From Romeriopsis navalis LEGE 11480 (GTDB taxonomy: Bacteria; Cyanobacteriota; Cyanobacteriia; Leptolyngbyales; Leptolyngbyaceae): a stretch of 64,000 nt of DNA. The stretch covers positions 1-64,000 of the forward strand of contig NZ_JADEXQ010000020.1 of assembly GCF_015207035.1 (NCBI RefSeq). Reading direction: 5' to 3'. The notes under the pieces were generated by a model. The model saw only the letters and a list, made by a program, of their open reading frames with translations. It was not told the origin of the DNA and searched no databases. The translations under genes were made by a program, and so were the position numbers. This document shows, one piece after another, positions 21,542 to 33,548 of this stretch. Numbering within the stretch: position 1 is the stretch's first letter; each line of letters starts with the position of its first letter.

Positions 21542-22747
21542 ATGGTTACATCACTTTTAGAACATCCGAAAACCCAGAAAAAGCTCCAAATCAACTACCG
21601 TCGTAACCAGGACCAAGATCAAACAGCGGCGATCGATACGGCAACGCGTCAGTTTGATTATGAAGACTGTCGTCACGAATATTGGAATCCAGAGGAATTC
21701 TCGCTGCTTTATGGCACGCCGTTGTGGGAGCAGGCAAGTGCAAGTCAGCGATTGGTGTTGAACCACCTGTATTGGGTGGCTTATTACGCTCAAATTATTT
21801 CCGCAGAAATCGCGACGATCTATTTTAATCAAACCAGTGCAGCGGGGCTATATGCGCTGCCAGATTTCCGCTTGGTTTGCGATACGCTGGATTTAGAGTC
21901 GGCCCAGGAACGCTCACATATCAATGCATTTCAGGTGATTGGCGCGCAGACAGAGCAGGCATTGTTTGGCGATCGACTCTTTAGTTATCCGATGCGTGGA
22001 CCATTTACTGAAACGATGCTGTTTCCAAACTCGAATTGGCTGCAAACGCATTGGAAGAAACTTCAACTTCAGTATTTTGGATTGATTTCAGCGAATAATG
22101 CCTTCTTGGCTTGCCAATATTTTACTGTGCGGGGCTTGCGCACACTGAATGGCAAGCTGGTGCAGCATCAGCTGAGTCAGTACTACCAAAAACATGCTGA
22201 ACCGGATAATGCGCCAATTCCCTCGAAAATTTCCTACTATCACTTCTTGGATGAGAGTTTTCATTTCAATAGCTCAACGGTGATTTCCCAAGATGTGATT
22301 CATTGTTTGAATAAACCCACGAAGTTAGAGGCCTTTGTGGCAAATTTGGGGATTCGGGGTTGTCAGCAAGATCATTATCATTTCTCGGCGGCGATCAATG
22401 GGATCTTTTGGTATGACCCAGCGCTTTATGAGACGGTTTATCGCTTGCTGCGATCGTCCATATTCAACATGGATGATGTCGCCGCAAAAAATATGATGCA
22501 GCAGTGCTTTACGACAGAATCTGATGGATTGCATCGCAGTTTCCAAACTCATCAGGAGGCGATGGCTTCCTACAGGGCGTATATCGCGAAGCTCGACTAT
22601 GTGTGGCCCAGTAACCATGAGATGACTGTGATGTCGGGCAATTCGATCAAGCAATATTTGCAACGACAACAGCGGTCATGGGCGAAGTTCTCACAGCGAT
22701 TGCCATCAGAACTAAAATCAAATTATCAGCCTGTGCTGCAAGGATAG
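21542..22747 (+). CDS. AurF-like diiron oxygenase candidate
   Basis: 401 residues. Possible diiron ligands follow the AurF (p-aminobenzoate N-oxygenase) spacing: E89 in ISAEIATIYF, E123-R-S-H126 in QERSHINAF, and H234-x3-E238-x2-H241 in YYHFLDESFHFN. The last has exactly AurF's H-x3-E-x2-H spacing. However, residues 161-219 contain no glutamate, so the ligand corresponding to AurF Glu196 appears to be missing. The N-terminal 60 residues and the C-terminal 130 residues match nothing I recognise. It lies 9 bp after the ferritin-like gene and 8 bp before the second Rieske gene. N-oxygenation or desaturation is possible; the reaction is not proven. Confidence 0.65.
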   Translation: MVTSLLEHPKTQKKLQINYRRNQDQDQTAAIDTATRQFDYEDCRHEYWNPEEFSLLYGTPLWEQASASQRLVLNHLYWVAYYAQIISAEIATIYFNQTSAAGLYALPDFRLVCDTLDLESAQERSHINAFQVIGAQTEQALFGDRLFSYPMRGPFTETMLFPNSNWLQTHWKKLQLQYFGLISANNAFLACQYFTVRGLRTLNGKLVQHQLSQYYQKHAEPDNAPIPSKISYYHFLDESFHFNSSTVISQDVIHCLNKPTKLEAFVANLGIRGCQQDHYHFSAAINGIFWYDPALYETVYRLLRSSIFNMDDVAAKNMMQQCFTTESDGLHRSFQTHQEAMASYRAYIAKLDYVWPSNHEMTVMSGNSIKQYLQRQQRSWAKFSQRLPSELKSNYQPVLQG

Positions 22748-22755
22748 GTGAAACC

Positions 22756-23790
22756 ATGAATACAACAGTCGATCCCAAGCTCACTCAACCGATTTTCAAT
22801 CAGGCGAACGTCGTCACTAAAGGTTGGTACGTGGGATGCCGGAGTGCGGAACTGCCAATTGGTAAAGCCAAATCGCTGGATCTTTGTGGCCAGCGTATTG
22901 TGTTATATCGCGGTGCTGATGCGGTGGTGCGAGCTTTAGATGCTTACTGTCCGCACCTGGGGACTGACCTGGGCTTGGGCCGCGTCGATGGTAATCACAT
23001 CCGCTGTTTTTTTCATCATTGGGCTTTTGATCCATCGGGTGAGTGCCAGGATATTCCCTGTGGGGCAAAGATTCCCAGCAATGCTAACGTTCGTGCTTAT
23101 GCAACGGATGAAAAGTATGGCTTGATTTGGATTTATCCCGATCGCACCGCGCCAACGGGTGTAGCGGAGTTTGACGAACTGCGCGATCGCGAATTAGTCA
23201 TGCATTACGATACACCACTGGAGCGGGGTTGCCACCATCATATCTGCATGATGAATGGGATTGATGCCCAGCATTTGCAGACGGTGCATGGGTTGTCGAT
23301 CGATATGCAGTTGGATTTGCAGGCCGATCCGTCAGCGGGATTAATCGACTTCACAATGTCTGGTGCGGTGCCGGACACGACGGCGAAAGAGCGATTGATT
23401 AAATGGTTTCTTGGTGAACAGTATTGTTATTCCATGCGTTATGCCTACGGGTGTTTGGGCTTACTCACGATGATGAAAGGGGTGAAGTGGGTGCCGCCGC
23501 TGCATATGCTCTATGCCTATATGCCGATCGCGGGTGGTCAGCGGACGCGAATTCTACCGATTTATGTCACGGCGAAACGCACTGGAATCTTTGGCTGGCT
23601 CACTGCGCAATTCTTGCTAGTGCTGACTCGTCTGGCTTACTACTTCCTCCGCGATGAAGATGGCCAGGTGTACGACAATATTCGCTTTGCGCCGAATGCT
23701 TTGCTGGCGATCGATGCACCGCTGGTGCGCTATATGCAATATGTGAATCAACTAGAGCCGTCTTGTTGGTCGCAGGGAGAGGCATTATGA
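22756..23790 (+). CDS. Rieske non-heme iron oxygenase B
   Basis: 344 residues from the ATG at 22756 (MNTTVDPKLTQPIF); the open frame extends further upstream into the preceding gene but is not used. Rieske ligands are C65-P-H67 and C84-F-F-H87 (YCPHLGTDLGLG, IRCFFHHWAFD). Mononuclear iron ligands are D170-A-Q-H173-x4-H178 (NGIDAQHLQTVHGL). It is related to oxygenase A in this operon (shared CFFH and D-A-x-H patterns), but the two are clearly diverged. Its end overlaps the ferredoxin gene by 4 bp, so the two are translationally coupled. This makes the ferredoxin its likeliest electron donor. Confidence 0.9.
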   Translation: MNTTVDPKLTQPIFNQANVVTKGWYVGCRSAELPIGKAKSLDLCGQRIVLYRGADAVVRALDAYCPHLGTDLGLGRVDGNHIRCFFHHWAFDPSGECQDIPCGAKIPSNANVRAYATDEKYGLIWIYPDRTAPTGVAEFDELRDRELVMHYDTPLERGCHHHICMMNGIDAQHLQTVHGLSIDMQLDLQADPSAGLIDFTMSGAVPDTTAKERLIKWFLGEQYCYSMRYAYGCLGLLTMMKGVKWVPPLHMLYAYMPIAGGQRTRILPIYVTAKRTGIFGWLTAQFLLVLTRLAYYFLRDEDGQVYDNIRFAPNALLAIDAPLVRYMQYVNQLEPSCWSQGEAL

Positions 23791-24080
23791 CCCTGTGCCG
23801 CATTCACTTTCCTGGGACGCAATTTGACGATATGGAATTGCCTCCACATCAACCCTTAGCCGAAGCACTCACGGTGCAAAATTCGCCGGTGTTATTTGGC
23901 TGTCGGACGGGTTTGTGTGGAACTTGTGTGGTGCGAGCCGAAGGTTGTGTGACACCACCGACAGCGGATGAACAGGAGATTTTGGAACTGTATGCGCCGG
24001 ATGAGGCAACGGCCCGATTGGCTTGTCAGTTGGATGTGACTGGTGATCTCGCGCTCTGTAAGTTTGAGGTGGGCGCGTGA
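23787..24080 (+). CDS. [2Fe-2S] ferredoxin
   Basis: 97 residues from the ATG at 23787; the open frame before it is read-through from the preceding gene. The plant-type cluster motif is C39-x4-C44-x2-C47 (GCRTGLCGTC) with the distal C80 in RLACQLDV. It is coupled to a Rieske gene on each side (ATGA at 23787, GTGA at 24077), which indicates stoichiometric production. It probably passes electrons to the three Rieske enzymes and perhaps to the diiron proteins. No reductase gene is present in the operon, so a general reductase such as FNR would be needed. Confidence 0.92.
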   Translation: MTLCRIHFPGTQFDDMELPPHQPLAEALTVQNSPVLFGCRTGLCGTCVVRAEGCVTPPTADEQEILELYAPDEATARLACQLDVTGDLALCKFEVGA

Positions 24081-25111
24081 AGCTGGAGGACTTTTGGTAT
24101 GTTGTGGCCTTAAGCAAACGGCTCAAACCGCATCAGGTGATTGCACGATCGGTGTTGGGTGAATGGCTAGCGATCTTTCGGGGGCCGGATGGTCAGGCTG
24201 TGGCACTGCCCGATCGGTGTATGCATCGCAATAGTCGTTTATCCACTGGGGCTGTCCGACAAGGGCAACTACATTGTCCCTATCATGGCTGGGTGTATGA
24301 TGCGCAGGGCCAAGTGGTGGATGTGCCATCGGAGGGTGAGTTTTTTCAGCGTTATCTCAAACAGCAACAGACCCGCTGTGTGAAACGCTATGACGTTCGT
24401 GAGCACGATGGTTATGTTTATGTGCGATTAAATTCTATGCCGACGGAATCTGTAGCGCCTTTTGTCATGCCGCACTACGGTGAGGCTGGTTGGGAGACGG
24501 TAAGAGTAATCAATCGGTTTGCGAATACCGTAACAAACTGCGCCGAGAATTTTATTGATATTCCCCATACGGTGTCGGTGCATCCGGGGGTATTTCGATC
24601 GCCCCGGCGGCAGCAATTGGAGATGCAGGTCGATCGGGTGAATGGCTCCGTCGTCGCGACCTATGCCCAGGAAACCGATAATCTTGGCTGGTATCGAGCT
24701 TTCTTGAATCCTGATGGTAAAGAGATTCGACATATCGATCGTTACTTTATGCCGAATGTAACTTCGGTGGAATATGACTTGGGGCACCATCGGCAATGCT
24801 TCATTACCAGTCAGTCGGTTCCTGAGACGGAGAATTCGACTTTGGTGTATACCGATGTGACTTATAACTACGGCCTTTGGAATAAGCTGGCACGACCGTT
24901 TGTATGGTGGACAGCGCAGCATATTATTGGCCAAGATGTGGCGATTCTAAAGGTGCAGGGAGAGACGATCACCAAATACGGTGAGCAGTTCTCGAATACG
25001 CCAGCGGATACGATTCATGTGTTTGTTGAGTCGATTTGGCGGGCATTAGAGCGGGGTGAAGATCCGCGTTTGTTGCCGGAGAAGTCTGTGCATATCAAGT
25101 TTTGGGTTTAG
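24077..25111 (+). CDS. Rieske non-heme iron oxygenase C (VanA-like)
   Basis: 344 residues with a GTG start at 24077 overlapping the ferredoxin stop. Rieske ligands are C48-M-H50 and C67-P-Y-H70 (DRCMHRNSRLSTG, LHCPYHGWVYD). The iron site is D-I-P-H-x4-H in ENFIDIPHTVSVHPG. The CPYHGW wording and the short N-terminus resemble vanillate O-demethylase/phenoxybenzoate-type oxygenases, so it is of a different subgroup from A and B. A demethylation or hydroxylation step is plausible. It is followed after 9 bp by the membrane hydroxylase gene. Confidence 0.9.
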   Translation: MKLEDFWYVVALSKRLKPHQVIARSVLGEWLAIFRGPDGQAVALPDRCMHRNSRLSTGAVRQGQLHCPYHGWVYDAQGQVVDVPSEGEFFQRYLKQQQTRCVKRYDVREHDGYVYVRLNSMPTESVAPFVMPHYGEAGWETVRVINRFANTVTNCAENFIDIPHTVSVHPGVFRSPRRQQLEMQVDRVNGSVVATYAQETDNLGWYRAFLNPDGKEIRHIDRYFMPNVTSVEYDLGHHRQCFITSQSVPETENSTLVYTDVTYNYGLWNKLARPFVWWTAQHIIGQDVAILKVQGETITKYGEQFSNTPADTIHVFVESIWRALERGEDPRLLPEKSVHIKFWV

Positions 25112-25120
25112 GAGTGCAGG

Positions 25121-25864
25121 ATGTTGCTTGTATTTCCAGTGTTTGCGGTTCTGATCATTGCGACGTTTTGGGGCGATCGGGGTTTGACGCAGCTGCGCCA
25201 GAAAAGTTTTGAGGCGTGGGTGCTTGATTTATTGGGATTAGTTGTACAGGGGGTGTTAATTCCGATTCTGCAAGTATTAGTGGTGGCGCGTTTGTATGAA
25301 TGGTTTGTGCCAGAGTTGCGTGGGATTTGGCATTTGCCGGGGTATTTAGCGTTTGGGTTAAACTTCGTCGCAGTCGATTATCTCTACTATTGGAATCACC
25401 GTTTGCTCCATACTGTAGGGCTTTGGCCGATGCATCAGGTGCATCATTCGGTGACGGCGATGGATGTGTTGGGGACTTCGCGTAATACGTTGTGGAGTAG
25501 TTTGCTGATTGTGTATCTCTGGGTGAATGGCTTGTTGGTTTATTTACTCGATGATCCGCAGTGGTATTTGGTGGGGATGAGTCTGACTTCGGGGTTGGAT
25601 TTGTGGCGACATAGTCGGTTTGTGGTGACTGGAAGGTGGGGGTTATGGTGTTTGTCGCCGTGGTTGAATTTGCCGCAGGATCACCATTGGCATCATGGTG
25701 GGGGGATTGATAATTGTAATTTTGGGGCGAATTTTAAACTCTGGGATCAGCTGCATGGGACGTATCGTGATGGTGCAGATTTACCACAGCTCTTGGGTGT
25801 AGCGGTGGATTTATCGTTGGTTCAGCAGTTGCTCATGCCGTTTCGATTTAATTTTAAGGATTGA
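25121..25864 (+). CDS. Membrane fatty-acid hydroxylase / sterol-desaturase family protein
   Basis: 247 residues with four or so membrane helices and the family's histidine boxes: H93-R-L-L-H97, H105-Q-V-H-H109 and H188-H-W-H-H192, with further His at 164 and 212 and Asp86 in NFVAVDYLYYWNH. These residues bind a diiron centre at the membrane surface in hydroxylases and desaturases of lipids, sterols and carotenoids. It is the last gene of the operon. It suggests the pathway's substrate or product is lipophilic, or is anchored in the membrane. Confidence 0.9.
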   Translation: MLLVFPVFAVLIIATFWGDRGLTQLRQKSFEAWVLDLLGLVVQGVLIPILQVLVVARLYEWFVPELRGIWHLPGYLAFGLNFVAVDYLYYWNHRLLHTVGLWPMHQVHHSVTAMDVLGTSRNTLWSSLLIVYLWVNGLLVYLLDDPQWYLVGMSLTSGLDLWRHSRFVVTGRWGLWCLSPWLNLPQDHHWHHGGGIDNCNFGANFKLWDQLHGTYRDGADLPQLLGVAVDLSLVQQLLMPFRFNFKD

Positions 25865-25954
25865 GGCGTGATTTCAGGACGATGCTAGTCCCGTGGACCT
25901 AAGTGCTCAGGCAGACTCGAGAATTTATTTTGTAGTTTTCACAAATCCATGCTA

Positions 25955-25972
25955 ATCTACATACATGTAGAT
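25955..25972 (+). promoter_or_regulatory. Operator 1 (before tetR)
   Basis: ATCTACATACATGTAGAT is an inverted repeat of 8-bp arms (ATCTACAT / ATGTAGAT) around a central AC. It ends 17 bases before the GTG start of the TetR gene. It is the most symmetric of six related sites in this island and probably mediates autoregulation. A -35-like TTGTAG (25930) and a -10-like TAATCT (25953) overlap or flank it. Confidence 0.8.
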
Positions 25973-25989
25973 AGATTCCTGAAAAAAAC

Positions 25990-26523
25990 GTGGGTGATAC
26001 AAAGTCAAAAATATTGGATGTCGCGGAGCAATTAATCCAAACCAAAGGATTTAATGGCTTTAGCTATCTTGATTTAGCCGATGCCATTGGCATCAAAAAC
26101 TCAAGTATCCATTACCACTTCAAAGCTAAAGCTGACCTTGCTTTAGCCCTAGTGGAACGCCTTCACGAGAGACATCTCGTTGTCTTTGAAGCGTTGGACC
26201 AAGATCTCGATTCTCCACCCCAGCGTTTGCAAGCCTTAGCCGATCACTTTCAAACCTATATTCAGGGCGAAAAGTTCTGTATGTGTGGAATGATGGCGGC
26301 GGAATTGCAATCCGTTAGTCCAGCTGTAAGAAGTCGCTTGATTGCCTATTTCAAGGATCTTCGAGCCTGGCTAACGAAACAGTTTGTGGCCATGGGAGAG
26401 GAGGATGCTGAGGAGCGGGCACTCCGCTTTGTCAGTACTGCAGAAGGCTCTTTGTTGCTTGCAAGACTTGAGGGTGATCCTCAAATTTTTGCCCAGGCAT
26501 TAAAAGCATTCATCCCAGACTGA
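25990..26523 (+). CDS. TetR family repressor of the detoxification island
   Basis: 177 residues, GTG start (MGDTKSKILDVAEQL). The helix-turn-helix is clear: FSYLDLADAIGIKNSSIHYHF, with KAKADLALALVERLHE after it. The C-terminal TetR_C domain holds a Cys pair (KFCMCGMMAAELQ, about residues 97-101) that could sense electrophiles or oxidants, as in NemR-type regulators. It ends with LRFVSTAEGSLLLARLEGDP. Five copies of its presumed operator lie in the next 5 kb before enzyme genes and one before itself. It is therefore the likely master regulator of those genes. Confidence 0.9.
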   Translation: MGDTKSKILDVAEQLIQTKGFNGFSYLDLADAIGIKNSSIHYHFKAKADLALALVERLHERHLVVFEALDQDLDSPPQRLQALADHFQTYIQGEKFCMCGMMAAELQSVSPAVRSRLIAYFKDLRAWLTKQFVAMGEEDAEERALRFVSTAEGSLLLARLEGDPQIFAQALKAFIPD

Positions 26524-26530
26524 TATTTTT

Positions 26531-26560
26531 TTGGCTTGATAATCTACATACATGTAGGTC
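26531..26560 (+). promoter_or_regulatory. Operator 2 with conserved promoter
   Basis: TTGGCT (26531-26536, preceded by a T-tract) and TAGGTC (26555-26560) are separated by 18 bp. The palindrome CTACATACATGTAG (26544-26557) fills the spacer and overlaps the presumed -10. Binding of the repressor here would block RNA polymerase. The site is 19 bp after the tetR stop and serves the alcohol dehydrogenase gene. Confidence 0.75.
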
Positions 26561-26610
26561 AATTTTAGAAATGCTTCGTTAAGTATGGAGTTTCATCTCT
26601 AAACAAATCC

Positions 26611-26648
26611 CAAAGGAGACTAAAGCAATGCCAATTCCTGACTCGTAG
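26611..26648 (+). pseudogene. Leader and start of a lost gene (six-codon remnant)
   Basis: CAAAGGAGACTAAAGCAATG at 26611-26630 is almost the same ribosome-binding site and start as that of the first SnoaL-like gene (28746-28767). Here, though, the frame reads only MPIPDS and then TAG. This looks like the 5' end of a gene whose body was lost, with the dehydrogenase gene now following. It could also be a short leader peptide. Confidence 0.5.
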
Positions 26649-26716
26649 CTCGTTGATTCACTGGCGAGATAACGCATTTCACTTGAAAACAACATCACTT
26701 AATTCAACGTTAAATT

Positions 26717-27802
26717 ATGCTAGCCACTTACTATCACGATCGCTCAGAGATTCGCGTCGGCAACGTGCCAGAACCGACAATACTCAGCGATACAGACGCC
26801 ATCGTTCGCGTCACCCTCGCCGGGATTTGTGGTGCCGACTTCGACTTTATTAACAACGGTCCTGAAATGGGTGTGCCCCAGGGCATGCGTATGGGACATG
26901 AGTTTGTGGGTATCGTTGAAGCTGTCGGGAAAGCGGTTCATTCCGTTAAAGTTGGCGATCGTGTCGTTGCCTCAGCGATGTTTGTTGACGGTGTATGTCA
27001 CCATTGCAAACGCGATCTCCCCTCAGCTTGCGAACATGGCGGTCTGTTTGGCTCTCCCCTTTTCGTAGAGCACGGCGGCAGTGATATTCAAGGGGGCCAA
27101 TCTGAATTTGTGCGCGTGCCCTTTGCCAACGGGTCCCTCTTCAAACTACCTGACAGCTTTACGTCGGGTTCAGAAGACCACAGAGCGCTACCGCTAGCCG
27201 ATAATTTTGCCACGGGATATCATGGCGCGTTGAACTCAAATATTCTCCCTGGCGAAACCGTTGTCGTGATCGGTGACGGCGCGGTGGGACAGAGCGCTGT
27301 GATGGCAGCAGCAAAGCTCTTTGATCCTGAGCAGGTTATCCATGTGGGCCGACACGATAGCCGACTGGCATTTTCTAAGCAAAAAAGTGGCGCGACCCAC
27401 ACTGTAAATGGCAAGACCCAAGACCCAGTCGAGTATGTGAAGAGCCTGACGAAGGGTTACGGCGCGATGTCGATTATTGACACCGTTGGCAATAATGAAT
27501 CCACTGGGCAAGCCTTGGCCATGGCCCATGCGGGTGGCAAGTTGAGCGTGCTTGGGTTTGGGCATCTTTATGCCCCTGTAGATCAACCCTACTCTCAGGC
27601 TCTCTTTAGAAACCTGACCATTCATACAGGCGTGGTGAATGTGGCTAGCTATATGAAGATGCTGCTTCCGCTGGTCGAAAGCGGGCGTATTGATCCAAGT
27701 GTGATCTTTACGGATACTTTGCCGTTGGCAGAGGCTAAGCGTGGCTATGACTTAATGATGAGTCGGTCTGCGGGGACAGTCAAAGTTGCGCTTAAGCCCT
27801 AA
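26717..27802 (+). CDS. Zinc-dependent alcohol dehydrogenase (MDR superfamily)
   Basis: 361 residues. Catalytic zinc ligands are placed at Cys in LAGICGADFD and His-Glu in RMGHEFVG. The structural zinc lobe has the Cys cluster of GVCHHCKRDLPSACEHG. The Rossmann motif is VVVIGDGAVGQSAV (about 178-191). The family oxidises alcohols or reduces aldehydes/quinones with NAD(P)H. It is controlled by operator 2. The start has little ribosome-binding site; an intact leader with a good one lies 90 bp upstream but leads to a six-codon ORF. Confidence 0.9.
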   Translation: MLATYYHDRSEIRVGNVPEPTILSDTDAIVRVTLAGICGADFDFINNGPEMGVPQGMRMGHEFVGIVEAVGKAVHSVKVGDRVVASAMFVDGVCHHCKRDLPSACEHGGLFGSPLFVEHGGSDIQGGQSEFVRVPFANGSLFKLPDSFTSGSEDHRALPLADNFATGYHGALNSNILPGETVVVIGDGAVGQSAVMAAAKLFDPEQVIHVGRHDSRLAFSKQKSGATHTVNGKTQDPVEYVKSLTKGYGAMSIIDTVGNNESTGQALAMAHAGGKLSVLGFGHLYAPVDQPYSQALFRNLTIHTGVVNVASYMKMLLPLVESGRIDPSVIFTDTLPLAEAKRGYDLMMSRSAGTVKVALKP

Positions 27803-27840
27803 GTCGCAACCAGCAGGTTGTCGAAAGCTGACATGTTTTT

Positions 27841-27871
27841 TTGACCCAGCCATTTACATACATGTAGGTCA
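27841..27871 (+). promoter_or_regulatory. Operator 3 with conserved promoter
   Basis: TTGACC (27841-27846) after a run of T, an 18-bp spacer and TAGGTC (27865-27870). The spacer carries TACATACATGTA (27855-27866). Same geometry as operators 2, 4 and 6. It lies about 115 bp before the azoreductase gene. Confidence 0.78.
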
Positions 27872-27987
27872 TTTGAAACGACCTCTGAAAGGTCAGCTCA
27901 CAGTTTTTATCACCACTTTTCTGCAAGAGAGCAGAAACCAGAAAGAAATCGGATTCGCACCTATTTACTTAGATTTGAGGTTACATC

Positions 27988-28617
27988 ATGAAGAAACTGC
28001 TTTATATCAAGTGTTCACCGCGAGGCGCTGGTTCCAAGACAACCCAAATTGCTGAGGCATTTTTACCAGCTTACAAAGAGAAGTATCCCGATGCAGAGAT
28101 TGAGGAACTCGACCTTTTTAAGCTCAAACTACCTGAATTTGACGGCGATGCTGCTGCTGCAAAGATGTCTTTCTTCGGTGGACCTGATATGGACAGCAAG
28201 CAGCAGACTCTCTACGATGAATTGGTTCGGCTCTTCAACCAGTTCAACTCCGCTGACGATTATTTGTTCAGCATTCCAATGTGGAACTTCGGTGTGCCCT
28301 GGAAGCTGAAGCTCTACATCGATCTGTTGAGCATGCCCGGCACCCTTTTCGGCTTCGATCCAGCAGTTGGCTATAACGGGCTGCTTCAGAATAAGCGTGC
28401 GACCGCAGTGTATTCGGCAGCCATTTACAGTTCTGGTGCATCAAAGCAATTTGGGACTGACCACGTATCAACCCATTTCACCGACTGGTTAAACTTCGCT
28501 GGTATCGATGATGTTGCGACGGTATGGTACCAACGCTACAAGATGGTCAGTGACGACGAGGCGAGTGCAGCCTTGGATAAGGCGCGGGAAGAGACTAGGG
28601 TAGCGGCACGGCGATAA
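27988..28617 (+). CDS. azoR: FMN-dependent NADH-azoreductase / quinone reductase
   Basis: 209 residues with a flavodoxin-like fold. The N-terminal MKKLLYIKCSPRGAGSKTTQIA forms the FMN phosphate loop, and SIPMWNFGVPWKLKLYID (about 93-110) matches the diagnostic P-M-[YW]-N-F-x-[IV]-P motif. These enzymes make two-electron reductions of azo dyes and quinones, which avoids radical formation. Under operator 3, consistent with defence against quinones and electrophiles. Length is normal (about 200). Confidence 0.9.
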   Translation: MKKLLYIKCSPRGAGSKTTQIAEAFLPAYKEKYPDAEIEELDLFKLKLPEFDGDAAAAKMSFFGGPDMDSKQQTLYDELVRLFNQFNSADDYLFSIPMWNFGVPWKLKLYIDLLSMPGTLFGFDPAVGYNGLLQNKRATAVYSAAIYSSGASKQFGTDHVSTHFTDWLNFAGIDDVATVWYQRYKMVSDDEASAALDKAREETRVAARR

Positions 28618-28666
28618 GTACAGCATTCACTGGAAGCAATTAACCAGAGTCGGAAACCATATTTTT

Positions 28667-28697
28667 TTGACCCATTTACTTACATACATGTAGGTCA
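28667..28697 (+). promoter_or_regulatory. Operator 4 with conserved promoter
   Basis: TTGACC (28667-28672) after seven T, 18-bp spacer, TAGGTC (28691-28696), with TACATACATGTA (28681-28692) in between. It precedes the first SnoaL-like gene by about 70 bp. Confidence 0.78.
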
Positions 28698-28764
28698 ATC
28701 TTGATCCTTCTTCTGTTAAGCGTTGAACTCAAAATCTAATCCACCCCCAAAGGAGACTAAAACA

Positions 28765-29184
28765 ATGTCAACTACAACAACACTAAACGTAACCCCTAAA
28801 ACAGCCGCTGATGAAGCACAGAGCTTTGCAGAATACAAAGCTGTTGAAGTTGCCTTGCAGCCTTATATCGAGTCAGCTAAAACAGGTGACGGTGCGCTTT
28901 GCCGGACGGCCTTTTATGACCATGCTCATATTGTTGGCTCAGTCAACGGCACTTTCTATGACTTGGATGCTGATACGTTTCAAGGGGCAGTGAGTGAAAC
29001 AGGCGCATCCCCAGACGTTCAGTCCCACATTGCCTGGATTGATATTTCTGGACCTGCCGCCGCCGCAAAGGTTGAATTTATCAATTGGGCTGGTTTTCGC
29101 TACACCGATTTCTTTGTCCTCTATAAGCAGGATGGACAGTGGAAAATCAGCGGCAAGGTCTACGACTCTCACGCCCAAAACTAA
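28765..29184 (+). CDS. SnoaL/NTF2-like (lumazine-binding 2 type) protein, copy 1
   Basis: 139 residues from the ATG at 28765, chosen for the AGGAG 10 bases upstream. The cone-shaped NTF2-like fold is suggested by ALQPYIESAKTGDGALCRTA and FYDHAHIVGSVNGTFYDLD through KVEFINWAGFRYTDFFVLY to GQWKISGKVYD. The family is often annotated as putative lumazine-binding or NTF2-like; its function is unknown. It is followed 35 bp later by the AhpD-like gene, presumably in one transcript. A near-identical copy lies at 30045. Confidence 0.85.
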   Translation: MSTTTTLNVTPKTAADEAQSFAEYKAVEVALQPYIESAKTGDGALCRTAFYDHAHIVGSVNGTFYDLDADTFQGAVSETGASPDVQSHIAWIDISGPAAAAKVEFINWAGFRYTDFFVLYKQDGQWKISGKVYDSHAQN

Positions 29185-29219
29185 GCTTCAACCCCAATAC
29201 TTAAATAAGGAGAAACACG

Positions 29220-29786
29220 ATGACGAATTTTACTTTGCACACTGAAGAAACAGCTCCCGTAAAAAGCACAACGATCCTGCAAGGCGCTAAGAAAGCCTAC
29301 GGCTTTGTGCCGAACCTGATGGCTGCTTTGGCAGAATCCCCGGCGGCACTCGAAGCTTATGTTACGCTTTCTGGCATCTTTGACAAGAGTGACTTTACCC
29401 CGGCAGAGCGTCAAATTGTTTTGATGACCAACAACCGTCTAAACGGTTGCACATACTGCATGGCTGCACATTCAACCATTTCCAAAATGCAGAAAATTCC
29501 AGCTGATGTCATTGAGACATTGCGTAACGGCACATCATTTACCGATCCAAAGCTTGAAGCGCTGCGCGTATTCTCAACTCAAGTCAATCAGAATCGTGGT
29601 GTTCTCAGTGATGCTGATATAGATGCGTTCATTGCGGCAGGTTACAGCCAGGCTAACGTCCTCGAAGTTATTTTGGGAACGGGCTTAAAGGTTCTATCTA
29701 ATTATTCGAACCACGTTGTTAATACACCTGTTGATGACGCATTCCAATCAGATAAGTGGTCTGCAGATATACCTGTGGCTGCATAG
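29220..29786 (+). CDS. AhpD-like / carboxymuconolactone decarboxylase family protein
   Basis: 188 residues. The redox motif C-T-Y-C-M-A-A-H in RLNGCTYCMAAHSTISK (about 75-90), with Glu in AERQIVL before it, matches the AhpD active site (E...CxxC...H). Related proteins reduce peroxidases or remove peroxides through the Cys pair. Ribosome-binding site AGGAG 10 bases upstream. Probably cotranscribed with SnoaL copy 1 from operator 4. Confidence 0.9.
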   Translation: MTNFTLHTEETAPVKSTTILQGAKKAYGFVPNLMAALAESPAALEAYVTLSGIFDKSDFTPAERQIVLMTNNRLNGCTYCMAAHSTISKMQKIPADVIETLRNGTSFTDPKLEALRVFSTQVNQNRGVLSDADIDAFIAAGYSQANVLEVILGTGLKVLSNYSNHVVNTPVDDAFQSDKWSADIPVAA

Positions 29787-29833
29787 CAAGTCAGAGCTTA
29801 AACAATCCCATGCCTTCTACCTCAGGAACTTGG

Positions 29834-29935
29834 GACAGAGCAGTCAGCTTTATTAGCCCATCAGAAGGCTCATTGTTGCTGGCAAAAATTGAGAATAGTC
29901 CTAAATTTTTCGGCCAGACTCTGAATAATTTATCC
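29834..29935 (+). pseudogene. Decayed 3' end of a second tetR gene
   Basis: Translation in the frame containing DRAVSFISPSEGSLLLAKIE and then NSPKFFGQTLNNLSTKD matches the last 34 residues of the intact repressor at 25990 (LRFVSTAEGSLLLARLEGDP...), with about half the positions identical. There is no helix-turn-helix upstream. As with the intact gene, an operator copy follows closely (26 bp here, 19 bp there). It is therefore a remnant of a duplicated tetR-operator unit. Confidence 0.75.
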
Positions 29936-29961
29936 ACAAAAGATGTTTTGCTTCTAGAACA

Positions 29962-29980
29962 TTTACATACATGTAGGTCA
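29962..29980 (+). promoter_or_regulatory. Operator 5
   Basis: TTTACATACATGTAGGTCA contains TACATACATGTA (29964-29975) and TAGGTC. The -35 is weaker (TTGCTT at 29948, 20-bp spacing) than in the other copies. It precedes SnoaL copy 2 by about 65 bp. Confidence 0.75.
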
Positions 29981-30044
29981 GCTTTAGTGTGTGCTGTGTT
30001 GAAAGGTCATCTCAACCTTACCTAAACCCAAGGAAACTAAGATA

Positions 30045-30464
30045 ATGTCAACTAAAACGAAACTAGACGTAACCGTTAGAACTGCTGCTGATGAAGCCTA
30101 TAGCTTTTCAGAATATAAGTCTGTAGAGGCGGCATTACAGCCTTACATTGAGTCAGCTAAGACAGGCGATGGTGCGCTTTGCCGGACGGCCTTTTATGAC
30201 CACGCTCATATTGTTGGCTCAGTCAACGGCACTTTTTATGATTTGGATGCTGATACGTTTCAAGGGGTGGTGAGTGAAACAGGCGCATCCCCAGATGTTC
30301 AGTCTCACATTGCCTGGATTGATATTTCTGGACCTGCTGCCGCCGCAAAGGTTGAATTTATCAATTGGGCTGGGTTCCGCTACACCGATTTCTTTGTGCT
30401 CTACAAGCAAGATGGTCAGTGGAAAATCAGCGGCAAGGTCTACGACTCTCACGCCCAGAACTAA
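30045..30464 (+). CDS. SnoaL/NTF2-like protein, copy 2
   Basis: 139 residues, identical to the copy at 28765 at 129 positions. Nine of the ten differences lie within the first 29 residues and one at residue 75. The last 64 residues are the same. Such a sharp boundary points to gene conversion or a very recent duplication with selection on the N-terminus. It stands alone after operator 5 and before operator 6, without an AhpD-like partner. Ribosome-binding site AAGGAA upstream. Confidence 0.85.
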   Translation: MSTKTKLDVTVRTAADEAYSFSEYKSVEAALQPYIESAKTGDGALCRTAFYDHAHIVGSVNGTFYDLDADTFQGVVSETGASPDVQSHIAWIDISGPAAAAKVEFINWAGFRYTDFFVLYKQDGQWKISGKVYDSHAQN

Positions 30465-30505
30465 TGATGTCTGCACAGATAATAGTCAGTACCTAACTGA
30501 CTTTT

Positions 30506-30536
30506 TTGGCTCAATCATCAACATACATGTAGGTCA
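30506..30536 (+). promoter_or_regulatory. Operator 6 with conserved promoter
   Basis: TTGGCT (30506-30511) after a T-tract, 18-bp spacer, TAGGTC (30530-30535), with the somewhat shorter palindrome ACATACATGT (30521-30530). It precedes the peroxiredoxin-like gene by about 110 bp. Confidence 0.75.
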
Positions 30537-30643: not shown

Positions 30644-31192
30644 ATGACTGCAATTGCAACTGCAACAACTTCGGCGATTCGCCTGGTGCCTGGTAACGTT
30701 GTCCCCGCCCTAACGGTTGATACGCTGTCGGGAAATGCTTGGAGTCTTGCTGAGCAAACGCCTCGCAACTACACGATGGTGGTTTTTTATCGCGGTTTAC
30801 ACTGCCCCCTTTGTGCTGATTATTTACAGCAGCTAACCAGTAAGCTAAGTCAGTTCAACGAGCTCGGTATTGAAGTCATTGCCATCAGTGGTGATAGTCG
30901 TGAAAAGGCTGCTACCTCAGCTGAAACCTGGGGTGTTAATGACTTGACGCTGGGCTATGGCCTCACCCGTGAAGCAATGCAGCAGTGGGGGCTTTACGTT
31001 TCTAAGGGGGCGTTTGACAATGAGCCCAACTATTTCAATGAACCTGGACTCTTTTTGATTGGCCCCGATGGCCTGCTCTCTTTCGCCAGCGTCAATAACG
31101 CTCCGTATGGTCGCACTGACCTAGATACATTGCTCCGAGGATTGGACTTTGTTTTGAACCACAACTACCCCGTGCGTGGAACTGAAGTCTAA
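30644..31192 (+). CDS. Peroxiredoxin-like (AhpC/TSA superfamily) protein
   Basis: 182 residues with a thioredoxin fold. After VVFYRGLHCPLCADYLQQL comes the C-x-x-C active site (CPLC, about residues 55-58), then GIEVIAISGDSREKA, typical of the AhpC/TSA fold. Members are annotated as peroxiredoxin-like; the peroxidatic Cys is likely the first of the pair. It is under operator 6. Together with the AhpD-like protein it could form a peroxide-reducing pair. Confidence 0.87.
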   Translation: MTAIATATTSAIRLVPGNVVPALTVDTLSGNAWSLAEQTPRNYTMVVFYRGLHCPLCADYLQQLTSKLSQFNELGIEVIAISGDSREKAATSAETWGVNDLTLGYGLTREAMQQWGLYVSKGAFDNEPNYFNEPGLFLIGPDGLLSFASVNNAPYGRTDLDTLLRGLDFVLNHNYPVRGTEV

Positions 31193-31319
31193 AAGTATGG
31201 GGTCGCAGTGCTGCTCCACGTTATTCAGTCTGAAATCAGGAGATCTGCGAGGGGCTGATTAAAGCTTCGCTATGGCCTCGCGCTATGTCCCCATTAACCC
31301 TAGTAAACCAGGAAATATC

Positions 31320-31964
31320 ATGATTGACTTTTACACCGCTGGTACACCCAATGGTTACAAGCCTGCCATCATGCTCGAAGAGATCGGGTTGCCCTATTCG
31401 ATTCATAAAATTGATATTGGCAAAGGAGAGCAATTCTCGCCTGAGTATGTGGAGATTAACCCCAACAGCAAAATTCCAGCCATCATCGATCGCGAAACAG
31501 GTATCTCCATATTTGAATCCGGTGCGGTGCTGATTTACCTAGCTGAAAAGACGGGTAAGCTTCTGCCAACTGAGCCCGCTGAACGAGCCCGGGTGATGGG
31601 TTGGCTGATGTTTCAAATGGCCAGTGTCGGTCCTATGTTTGGCCAGTTTGGACATTTTCGCAACGCAGCGCCCGAGAAGCTCCCCTACGCAATTGAGCGC
31701 TATCAAAAAGAAGCAACGCGGCTCTTAAAAGTTTTGGAGCATCAGCTAGCCAAGACAACTTATATGGCTGGAGACTACTCTATCGCTGATATTGCGACTT
31801 ATCCTTGGGTCTTTGGAGCAACCGGTCCCTATTTGGAGGTCTCGTTAGATGACTGTCCTAACGTTCAACGCTGGATGGAGGTGATGCAGGCTCGCCCAGC
31901 AGTTAAGACTGGCATGTCACTTTTCTCGCCTGAGTTTGATAGCAAATTAGGCGCGATCGCATAG
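31320..31964 (+). CDS. Glutathione S-transferase family protein
   Basis: 214 residues from ATG 31320 (MIDFYTAGTPNGYKPAIMLE); an upstream in-frame ATG at 31272 is less likely. N-terminal thioredoxin-like domain with NPNSKIPAIID and ESGAVLIYLAEKTGKLLP (the cis-Pro and glutathione-binding E-S pair). The C-terminal helical domain holds MAGDYSIADIATYPWV. It resembles the YfcG/YghU/Ure2-type GSTs, which have disulfide-bond reductase activity. No operator copy lies directly ahead, so it is probably read from the upstream transcript or a separate promoter. Confidence 0.88.
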   Translation: MIDFYTAGTPNGYKPAIMLEEIGLPYSIHKIDIGKGEQFSPEYVEINPNSKIPAIIDRETGISIFESGAVLIYLAEKTGKLLPTEPAERARVMGWLMFQMASVGPMFGQFGHFRNAAPEKLPYAIERYQKEATRLLKVLEHQLAKTTYMAGDYSIADIATYPWVFGATGPYLEVSLDDCPNVQRWMEVMQARPAVKTGMSLFSPEFDSKLGAIA

Positions 31965-32128
31965 TGTGAAAAGCGTTTCTGCTCTTAAGGAGAGGAAACA
32001 CCTAAAAGGACTGAAAACAACAAAGATTTTGACCATTAAGTGATGCTTTGAACAGGCAAGAAGACTTGCCGCAGGCATCTCGCCTCAGATATTGAGCCCC
32101 CGTTAGAAAACCAAACCAGAGAATTACA

Positions 32129-32872
32129 ATGAGCCAGAACATTGAAAGCAAAGTCGTGGTGATTACCGGAGCCAGCAGCGGCATTGGAGAATCAACCGCT
32201 CGTCATTTAGCCTCGCTGGGCGCGAAGGTTGTGTTGGGAGCCAGGCGCACGGAGAAATTGGAACGTATCACCCAAGAGATTCGCGACGGTGGGGGACAGG
32301 CTGAGTTTTTAACCACGGACGTGACGGTTGCTAGTGATTTAAAGGCATTGGTTGAGAAAGCGATCGCCACTTTTGGCCAAGTAGATGTCATTATCAACAA
32401 CGCTGGACTGATGGCGATCGCGCCCATGTCAGAGACGAAAACTGACGAATGGGATCGCATGATTGATATCAACATCAAGGGCTTTTTATACGGGATTGCA
32501 GCAGCCTTACCCATCTTTGAGAAACAGGGCAGTGGCCACTTTGTCAACATCTCCTCTGTCGCTGGCGTGAAGGTCTTTAGTCCCGGTGGGACGGTCTACA
32601 GTGGCACTAAATTTGCGGTAAGAGCCATTTCGGAAGGATTAAGACATGAAGTGAGCGGCAAAATTAGAACAACCACTATCGAGCCAGGCGCTGTAGATTC
32701 TGAACTAAAACACGGTAGTTCACATCAAGACAGCTCAGACTTTGTCAAAGATTTCTATCAGATTGCAATTCCCTCTGACTCGGTTGCCCGTGCGATCGCC
32801 TACGCCATTGAACAACCTGCTGATGTCGATATAAACGAGATTGTCTTACGCCCAACCGTCCAGGACTTCTAA
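32129..32872 (+). CDS. SDR family oxidoreductase
   Basis: 247 residues. NAD(P)-binding motif T13-G-A-S-S-G-I-G20, acid/amide motif NNAG (about 88-91) and the catalytic Y-x-x-x-K within VYSGTKFAVRAIS are present, with Ser in NISSVAG. The Arg pair in GARRTEKL suggests NADP preference. Substrate unknown. It follows the GST gene after about 160 bp and precedes the glyoxalase-like gene by 4 bp, so the last two are one unit. Confidence 0.9.
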   Translation: MSQNIESKVVVITGASSGIGESTARHLASLGAKVVLGARRTEKLERITQEIRDGGGQAEFLTTDVTVASDLKALVEKAIATFGQVDVIINNAGLMAIAPMSETKTDEWDRMIDINIKGFLYGIAAALPIFEKQGSGHFVNISSVAGVKVFSPGGTVYSGTKFAVRAISEGLRHEVSGKIRTTTIEPGAVDSELKHGSSHQDSSDFVKDFYQIAIPSDSVARAIAYAIEQPADVDINEIVLRPTVQDF

Positions 32873-32876
32873 GATT

Positions 32877-33311
32877 ATGACCACTCCAATTCCTGCAACT
32901 GTTCTACCCAAAAGAATTCTCTACACGATGATCCGTGTGAGCAATCTTGAAGACTCGATCGCCTTTTACCAAGAGATGTTGGGCATCTCCGAACTGGGAC
33001 GTGAAACCTTCCCAGAGGCTAAATTTACAGCAGTCTTTATGGGCTATGGCGATCGCACAACCCACCCCGTTATAGAGCTGACCTACAACTGGGGCGACAA
33101 CAGCTATGAACATGGCACTCGCTATGGCAATCTCTCCCTCGCTGTTAATGATGTCTATGCACTGGAAGCCCATCTCAAAGAGAGGGGCGTTGAAATTTTG
33201 CGTCCAGCCGGGGTTTTACCCATTGCCTCAACCGAAACAGGCACAAAGCATACACTCGCTTTTATCGCTGATCCGGACGGTTACCGGGTTGAACTGATGC
33301 AATCTATTTGA
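32877..33311 (+). CDS. Glyoxalase I-like (VOC) protein lacking two metal-ligand histidines
   Basis: 144 residues from ATG 32877 (MTTPIPATVLPK). It closely follows the glyoxalase I pattern: TMIRVSNLEDSIAFYQEMLG, FMGYGDR, VIELTYNWG, HGTRYGNLSLAVND and DPDGYRVELMQ. Against E. coli GloA, the first metal ligand His (LLHTML) is Tyr here (ILYTMI) and the second (YGHIAL) is Asn (YGNLSL). The two Glu ligands (VIELTYN and VELMQ) remain. It is therefore unlikely to be an ordinary Ni/Zn glyoxalase I. Tightly linked to the SDR gene (4 bp). Confidence 0.85.
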   Translation: MTTPIPATVLPKRILYTMIRVSNLEDSIAFYQEMLGISELGRETFPEAKFTAVFMGYGDRTTHPVIELTYNWGDNSYEHGTRYGNLSLAVNDVYALEAHLKERGVEILRPAGVLPIASTETGTKHTLAFIADPDGYRVELMQSI

Positions 33312-33548
33312 GATCGATCGGGAATGCCGATTTATTTTTTTGAGGATGTTGTTGTGGGCGATTAGATGAACGATAAACCGCTTTCCCTGCAACAATTCCT
33401 CATCAATTGCTGCCAGATTGTGCACACCATACTTTTCGCTCCCTTTCTCCGCAATTATCAAAAGCCCTGCAAATGTTTGGTTGTCCAAGCTCCCCCACCC
33501 GAAATCTTCCAGCTACCATAGGAGGCATGCCTCAAATCCAGTCCCACC

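Follow-up and report, generated by a model that had tools for sequence, protein, structure and literature searches.

We describe a predicted regulon in a 64,000-nucleotide stretch of the cyanobacterium Romeriopsis navalis LEGE 11480 (contig NZ_JADEXQ010000020.1, positions 1 to 64,000; hereafter the window), where the gene of a 177-residue TetR regulator (25990–26523, GTG start; this and all features below lie on the forward strand) sits among six copies of one palindrome. Considering the evidence as a whole, the best explanation is probably a TetR repressor that controls its own gene, acts through six operators and is released by an electrophile or oxidant. The regulator would bind the near-palindrome (A/C)CTACAT-AC-ATGTAGGT; at its own promoter the operator would abut the -10 element, and at the target promoters it would fill the space between -35 and -10 and overlap the -10, where bound TetR would exclude RNA polymerase. 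Five target promoters would drive the genes of a zinc dehydrogenase, an azoreductase-type flavoprotein, two Lumazine_bd_2 proteins, an AhpD-like protein and a SelL-related protein, and the glutathione S-transferase (GST), short-chain dehydrogenase (SDR) and glyoxalase genes are possibly read from the last of them. A reactive electrophile or oxidant, acting at or near cysteines 97 and 99 (C97 and C99), would free all six promoters together, and the local regulon would have grown partly through duplication of a cassette of tetR tail, operator and Lumazine_bd_2 gene, with later decay and gene replacement. Sequence comparison supports the identity of the operator, its pairing with TetR, the promoter layout and the target set (well, in the case of operator, regulator and layout); repression rather than activation, the inducer, the cysteine mechanism and joint derepression we infer, and naming the chemical that induces the regulon would be a guess. 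A search of the open-access literature, with most subscription papers outside its scope, found no description of the operator or the regulon, which we regard as real and apparently undescribed. For a TetR subgroup of unknown role, the comparison predicts the operator, the layout of the promoters and the targets.

Operator sites and promoters in the window

The six palindromes reported in the initial annotation are present. A pattern search of the window finds TACATACATGTA exactly at 25958, 26545, 27855, 28681 and 29964, and a sixth site at 30520 has the core AACATACATGTA, a single mismatch away. Operator 1 (25955–25972, ATCTACATACATGTAGAT), through which tetR would regulate itself, has 8-bp arms flanking AC, its full palindrome being ATCTACAT-AC-ATGTAGAT with 25955 as the first base; operators 2 to 6 follow at 26542–26559 (ATCTACATACATGTAGGT), 27852–27869, 28678–28695, 29961–29978 and 30517–30534. 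At up to two mismatches the window holds 17 matches (several single sites being counted on both strands), compared to an average of 2.5 in 100 shuffles, none of which exceeded 9. Across all 251 contigs of the genome (6.47 Mb) exact TACATACATGTA occurs five times, every copy inside the window between 25958 and 29975, and allowing one mismatch adds four places, site 6 among them; the one-mismatch places on contigs C12, C34 and C163 lack the consensus flanks. The genome-wide search that had been suggested for finding other members confines the exact copies to the window and yields no distant target that we would claim, since at three mismatches the counts (10 forward and 8 reverse) are not above those of a reversed control (8 and 12), a level at which weak distant targets cannot be judged. 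A scan of 386 genomes of the phylum for TACATACATGTAGGTC at up to one mismatch gave matches in 26 genomes, exact in G000 only. The phylum scan also returned TATATACATGTAGGTC or TAAATACATGTAGGTC as a single copy in many genomes of about 2 Mb from family f43 (L044–L065); these matches may lie inside a conserved gene or represent an unrelated site.

Four of the sites had further been said to lie between TTGRCY and TAGGTC at a spacing of 18 bp, and this holds for operators 2 (TTGGCT 26531–26536, TAGGTC 26555–26560), 3 (TTGACC 27841–27846, TAGGTC 27865–27870), 4 (TTGACC 28667–28672, TAGGTC 28691–28696) and 6 (TTGGCT 30506–30511, TAGGTC 30530–30535). Operator 5 keeps TAGGTC, and its -35 reads GCTTCT, without TTG. 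At site 1 both elements are missing; a possible tetR promoter, read from the sequence, consists of TTGTAG (25930–25935), 17 bp and TAATCT (25953–25958). Scanning the region for consensus promoters gave counts no higher than in shuffles, so the promoter layout rests on comparison. Terminator-like stems in the region are not above shuffles in number; one at 30484–30502 has a T tail that extends into the -35 of operator 6.

Operators beside related regulators

Among 58 genomes, comprising the genome itself and its relatives, no close relative of the TetR was found outside its own genome except a 61% identical fragment in G044. A protein scan of genome contigs gave 20 loci, in 17 of which the TetR is 54–93% identical over nearly its whole length; G461 and G631 (L084 and L086) have an identical contig and coordinates and were counted once. 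We take these 17 as ortholog loci and exclude L102 (44%), L103 (36%) and L105 (a partial match of 31%); L102 and L103 have no operator site at up to two mismatches. The ortholog loci come from Cyanobacteriota, Pseudomonadota, one Myxococcota metagenome-assembled genome (MAG) and one unplaced MAG. In a tree the four cyanobacterial TetRs, the window's included, cluster together (94/92); the deeper forks are mostly open, so that transfer of the TetR between phyla is suggested by its distribution and not proven by the tree. Matches to the TetR and Lumazine_bd_2 proteins in a plasmid collection were all below 60% identity.

Across the 17 loci, CTACATACATGTAGGT at up to three mismatches has 35 matches, of which 32 are near tetR (up to 250 bp upstream or 150 bp downstream, 6.8 kb in total) and three in the other 300 kb, namely in the L086 promoters of a SelL-type and an SDR gene and before a DUF3237 gene in L092. 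Twelve permuted motifs gave no match near tetR and 0–4 far from it; they were used because the reversed consensus (three matches near, three far) is a poor control for a motif that is nearly palindromic. Sites of the CTACATACATGTAGGT type stand upstream of tetR in 14 of the 17 loci, downstream in 15 and in either place in 16, with a variant palindrome in the 17th, and binding of each regulator beside its own gene is predicted. When whole genomes were scanned (22, of which 12 were searched a second time), most matches at 0–2 mismatches adjoined tetR among the matches listed, with one two-mismatch place each in G461, G633 and G635 among the exceptions. A separate case is L070 (contig C244 of G044), with operators at 469 and 1678 plus a relic of the tetR 3' end; no intact TetR ortholog was found in G044, where the best full TetR match is 34% and the assembly is 93% complete.

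The promoter layout was compared in 28 target and 15 tetR sites, hand-picked from core matches of up to two mismatches. Matches in genes or away from promoters were left out (L088 4913, L089 9434, L093 10811, L096 13445 and L101 13856), L104 contributes no site, and L100 is represented by its tetR site only. TTG stands exactly 14 bases 5' of the core in 13 of the 28 target sites, and none of 29 other offsets has it in more than 3, a spacing that supports the earlier claim that the palindrome overlaps the -10. Target sites have a T-tract before the TTG, and GGTC with the following A is strongly kept after the core; bases further out from the promoter core are not conserved, so the recurrence of the sites is not simply descent of the DNA. 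The tetR sites are positioned just after a possible -10 such as TAATCT, and the possible tetR promoter of the window recurs as TTGACT-17-TAATCT in L090 and TTGACA-17-TAGTCT in L091.

Operator and regulator also appear to change in step. In L104 and at the downstream place of L100 the palindrome CTAT[CT]GATATATAGATAG replaces the CTACATACATGTAGGT type, and TetR position 37, where the predicted recognition helix (H37-43) begins, is Thr in these two loci and Asn or His in the other orthologs. Base 11 is changed in 4 of 5 sites of His37 proteins compared to 1 of 35 of Asn37 proteins (Fisher p 2.7e-4, counted without L070, for which no regulator is known, and without the Thr37 loci L100 and L104; the sites are related and the p-value is a guide only). 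Such natural variants of operator and helix are useful for reading how TetRs choose their DNA. Phylogenetic footprinting, this co-change and the recurring target families strongly support the proposal of the initial annotation that the 177-residue TetR acts through the six palindromes, and hence the predicted pairing of regulator and operator.

That some other regulator acts on the palindromes is very improbable. The paralogous TetR on contig C37 of the same genome would be a candidate, with a related palindrome, CTACCTACTAGTAGGT, in the equivalent place after its own gene; however, the CTACATACATGTAGGT form tracks the ortholog group of the window TetR, and none of 11 paralog loci has a core match at up to one mismatch. 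The cyanobacterial paralogs (C37, which is locus L071, L073–L078 and L081; 28–36% identity) have a palindrome in corresponding places, with the core CTACCTACTAGTAGGT or a related one. For instance, in several of these loci a T-tract and then a palindrome come right after tetR (in L071 the T-tract is followed by CTACCTACTAGTAGGT), and in L075 TTGACA-18-GATAAT surrounds a CTACCTACTAGTAGGTAG palindrome. Also in L071, a 16-bp perfect palindrome, TACCTACTAGTAGGTA, lies between the paralogous tetR and the next reading frame, with similar ones at paralogs of several cyanobacteria; these L071-type palindromes would form a second operator family.

Target genes and duplication history

Pfam and NCBIfam bear out most of the earlier gene calls, namely the regulator, the zinc dehydrogenase, the azoreductase-type flavodoxin fold, AhpD/CMD and AhpC-TSA, whereas the two 139-residue proteins called SnoaL have no Pfam SnoaL match. 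Lumazine_bd_2 is their only Pfam match at E 0.001, and modelling gives the first an NTF2-like fold that best matches 3blz and 3duk, neither of known function; we therefore rejected the SnoaL identity. The zinc-dependent dehydrogenase (26717–27802, 361 residues, ADH_N and ADH_zinc_N) has relatives of 76% identity in two tetR loci, L100 and L104. Downstream are a flavin mononucleotide-dependent azoreductase/quinone-reductase type protein (27988–28617, 209 residues, Flavodoxin_2), the first Lumazine_bd_2/NTF2-fold protein (28765–29184, 139 residues), a CMD/AhpD-like "peroxidase-related" protein (29220–29786, 188 residues), the second Lumazine_bd_2 gene (30045–30464, 139 residues) and an AhpC-TSA/SelL-related redox protein (30644–31192, 182 residues), whose relative in L086 likewise stands behind an operator. 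No operator was found for the GST type protein (31320–31964), the SDR dehydrogenase (32129–32872) and the glyoxalase-family protein (32877–33311), a relaxed search of 31190–33320 giving no match below five mismatches; SDR relatives in L070 and L086 have an operator directly upstream. PADLOC gave no match for the two proteins tried.

The Lumazine_bd_2 gene is the core partner of the family, following tetR in 15 of the 17 ortholog loci; in L087 and L088 a small protein replaces it, that of L087 having no Pfam match when scanned. Relatives of the window's CMD, zinc dehydrogenase, SDR, GST and glyoxalase genes are found elsewhere in the ortholog loci, as are an old yellow enzyme in three loci (L100 by Pfam, L093 and L104 by clustering with that of L100), a tautomerase, a YdcZ exporter, DUF3237 and YHS proteins. 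In Tateyamaria (G640), two sites about 15 kb from tetR lie before the genes of a tautomerase (69% identity to that of L092) and of a YHS protein (33% to that of L104). For an action of the regulon in trans, these unlinked sites are the strongest evidence.

Self-comparison of the window indicates how several of its promoters arose. The tetR tail with operator 2 (26419–26568) is 71% identical to 29840–29987, the segment 26523–26634 is 73% identical to 28659–28771, and the operator with its Lumazine_bd_2 gene at 28680–29184 is 86% identical to 29963–30464. A relic of the tetR 3' end lies at 29833–29917 (73% to 26412–26496), the BLAST match 29840–29987 running through operator 5. A leader with GGAG and ATG that meets a stop after six codons (26578–26634) is 74% like the Lumazine_bd_2 leader and start, and is probably the remnant of a lost Lumazine_bd_2 copy. 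In G044 a tetR 3' relic likewise precedes an operator and a Lumazine_bd_2 gene. From the self-comparison, it appears that the cassette of tetR tail, operator and Lumazine_bd_2 gene was copied and partly decayed, with other genes placed behind some of the copies, an order of events that we infer. Alongside the local regulon, remnants of the duplications that contributed to it are still visible, and independent evolution of all six sites is ruled out by the evidence for sites 2, 4 and 5.

It could be argued that the promoters recur chiefly as a side effect of tandem duplication and that only the unit of tetR and Lumazine_bd_2 is meaningfully regulated, considering the longer flanks shared by operators 2, 4 and 5, the tetR 3' relic and the truncated leader. 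We find this improbable, as operators 3 and 6 have only about 40 bp in common with the remaining operators and nonetheless keep the core, L086 retains the site preceding the SelL-type gene, and the Tateyamaria sites are unlinked to tetR. The window pattern search gave no TACATACATGTA-type operator before the gene row directly upstream (22678–25864), which encodes a Rieske protein, a 2Fe-2S ferredoxin, a second Rieske oxygenase (VanA_C-like) and a member of the fatty-acid-hydroxylase family.

Cysteines and comparison with known regulators

The window TetR matches TetR_N with 43 bits (cut-off 24) and TetR_C_13_2 (PF21993) with 40.6 bits (cut-off 27), besides TetR_C_13, and its model has nine helices, a mean predicted local distance difference test (pLDDT) score of 90.3 and a template modelling (TM) score of 0.93 to 3on4. 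The TetR_N helix-turn-helix and an all-helical ligand domain were both found, which places the modelled protein in the TetR family. The closest solved structures by sequence and fold are 3on4 from Legionella and 2g7s from Agrobacterium, whose records give no function or operator. LmrA/YxaF-type regulators share TetR_C_13_2, and YxaF (1sgm) is a distant match (E 4e-9); its operator and targets we take to be different from those of the window TetR.

C97 and C99 are the sole cysteines of the window TetR, and all 20 aligned proteins have both. With a gene set that fits, it is plausible that the pair senses electrophiles or oxidants, as the initial annotation proposed for electrophiles or quinones. 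A similar arrangement is found in E. coli, where NemR (nemRA-gloA) is a TetR repressor adjoining detoxification enzymes (old yellow enzyme, glyoxalase), and the target families seen here (old yellow enzyme, glyoxalase, GST, azoreductase, CMD) resemble the NemR gene set. The glyoxalase family is present in the window, and an old yellow enzyme is not among the window's 10 proteins scanned. The operator presumably differs from the NemR box. In one paper (PMC7464077), NemR is described as sensing electrophiles and hypochlorous acid (HOCl) via cysteine, with a Cys106–Lys175 bond (a sulfenamide) in the case of HOCl. C97 aligns with NemR Cys106 and the invariant R159 with Lys175, so that the window TetR differs in having Arg for Lys175 and a second Cys at 99; as it has no other cysteines, it lacks counterparts of NemR Cys21 and Cys116. 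NemR (4yze) is a fold match with 19–22% identity (22% in a profile alignment), and no NemR-named family is among the NCBIfam matches. With this identity, and with Lys175 absent, the protein was rejected as a NemR ortholog, although by analogy it may work like NemR. If there is a thiol switch, its chemistry should differ from that of NemR, since the ortholog group has an additional Cys and no Lys at the corresponding position.

The CxC motif is kept in 2g7s, whereas 3on4 has the first Cys only. It is shared with 7 of 11 paralogous TetRs, the majority having other palindromes, so it may be structural and the case for a special sensor is weakened. The same TetR and operators could then respond to a non-covalent small molecule (for example an aromatic one on which the NTF2-fold and dehydrogenase proteins act), an alternative that we consider possible but rather unlikely. 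Consistent with it, CxC, and more widely the first Cys, recurs in TetRs with other palindromes, and the partner found most consistently has the NTF2 fold, which in many cases serves to bind or convert small, hydrophobic compounds. However, the targets vary by locus, mostly within redox or electrophile-handling families, and form no single fixed pathway. We favour release by an electrophile or oxidant; once the inducer is known, the operators could serve as inducible promoters in cyanobacteria.

Several points weigh against an autoregulated repressor of this kind. The correlation between helix and operator appears in few, related proteins, and G044 carries two sites yet no intact TetR ortholog was found there. 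Sites 2, 4 and 5, sharing longer flanks, are copies and not independent; operator 5 has no recognisable -35, and neither the consensus promoter count of the region nor the three-mismatch count of the operator in the whole genome exceeds its control. Lastly, the CxC of 7 of 11 paralogs is perhaps structural, and Arg stands at the position of NemR Lys175.

A broader picture, which we offer tentatively and hold to be doubtful, is that of a transmissible promoter-operator cassette regulon: a Cys-pair TetR would have moved between phyla and recruited new detoxification genes by placing copies of its tail, operator and leader before them, changes at position 37 (Asn, His, Thr) would shift operator specificity in step, and CxC would replace the Cys–Lys switch of NemR. 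Among the paralogs, L080 has a TATCTAACGTTAGATA palindrome upstream of a TetR in which CLGC replaces CxCG, and L072 has a CTAACG repeat related to the L080 palindrome.

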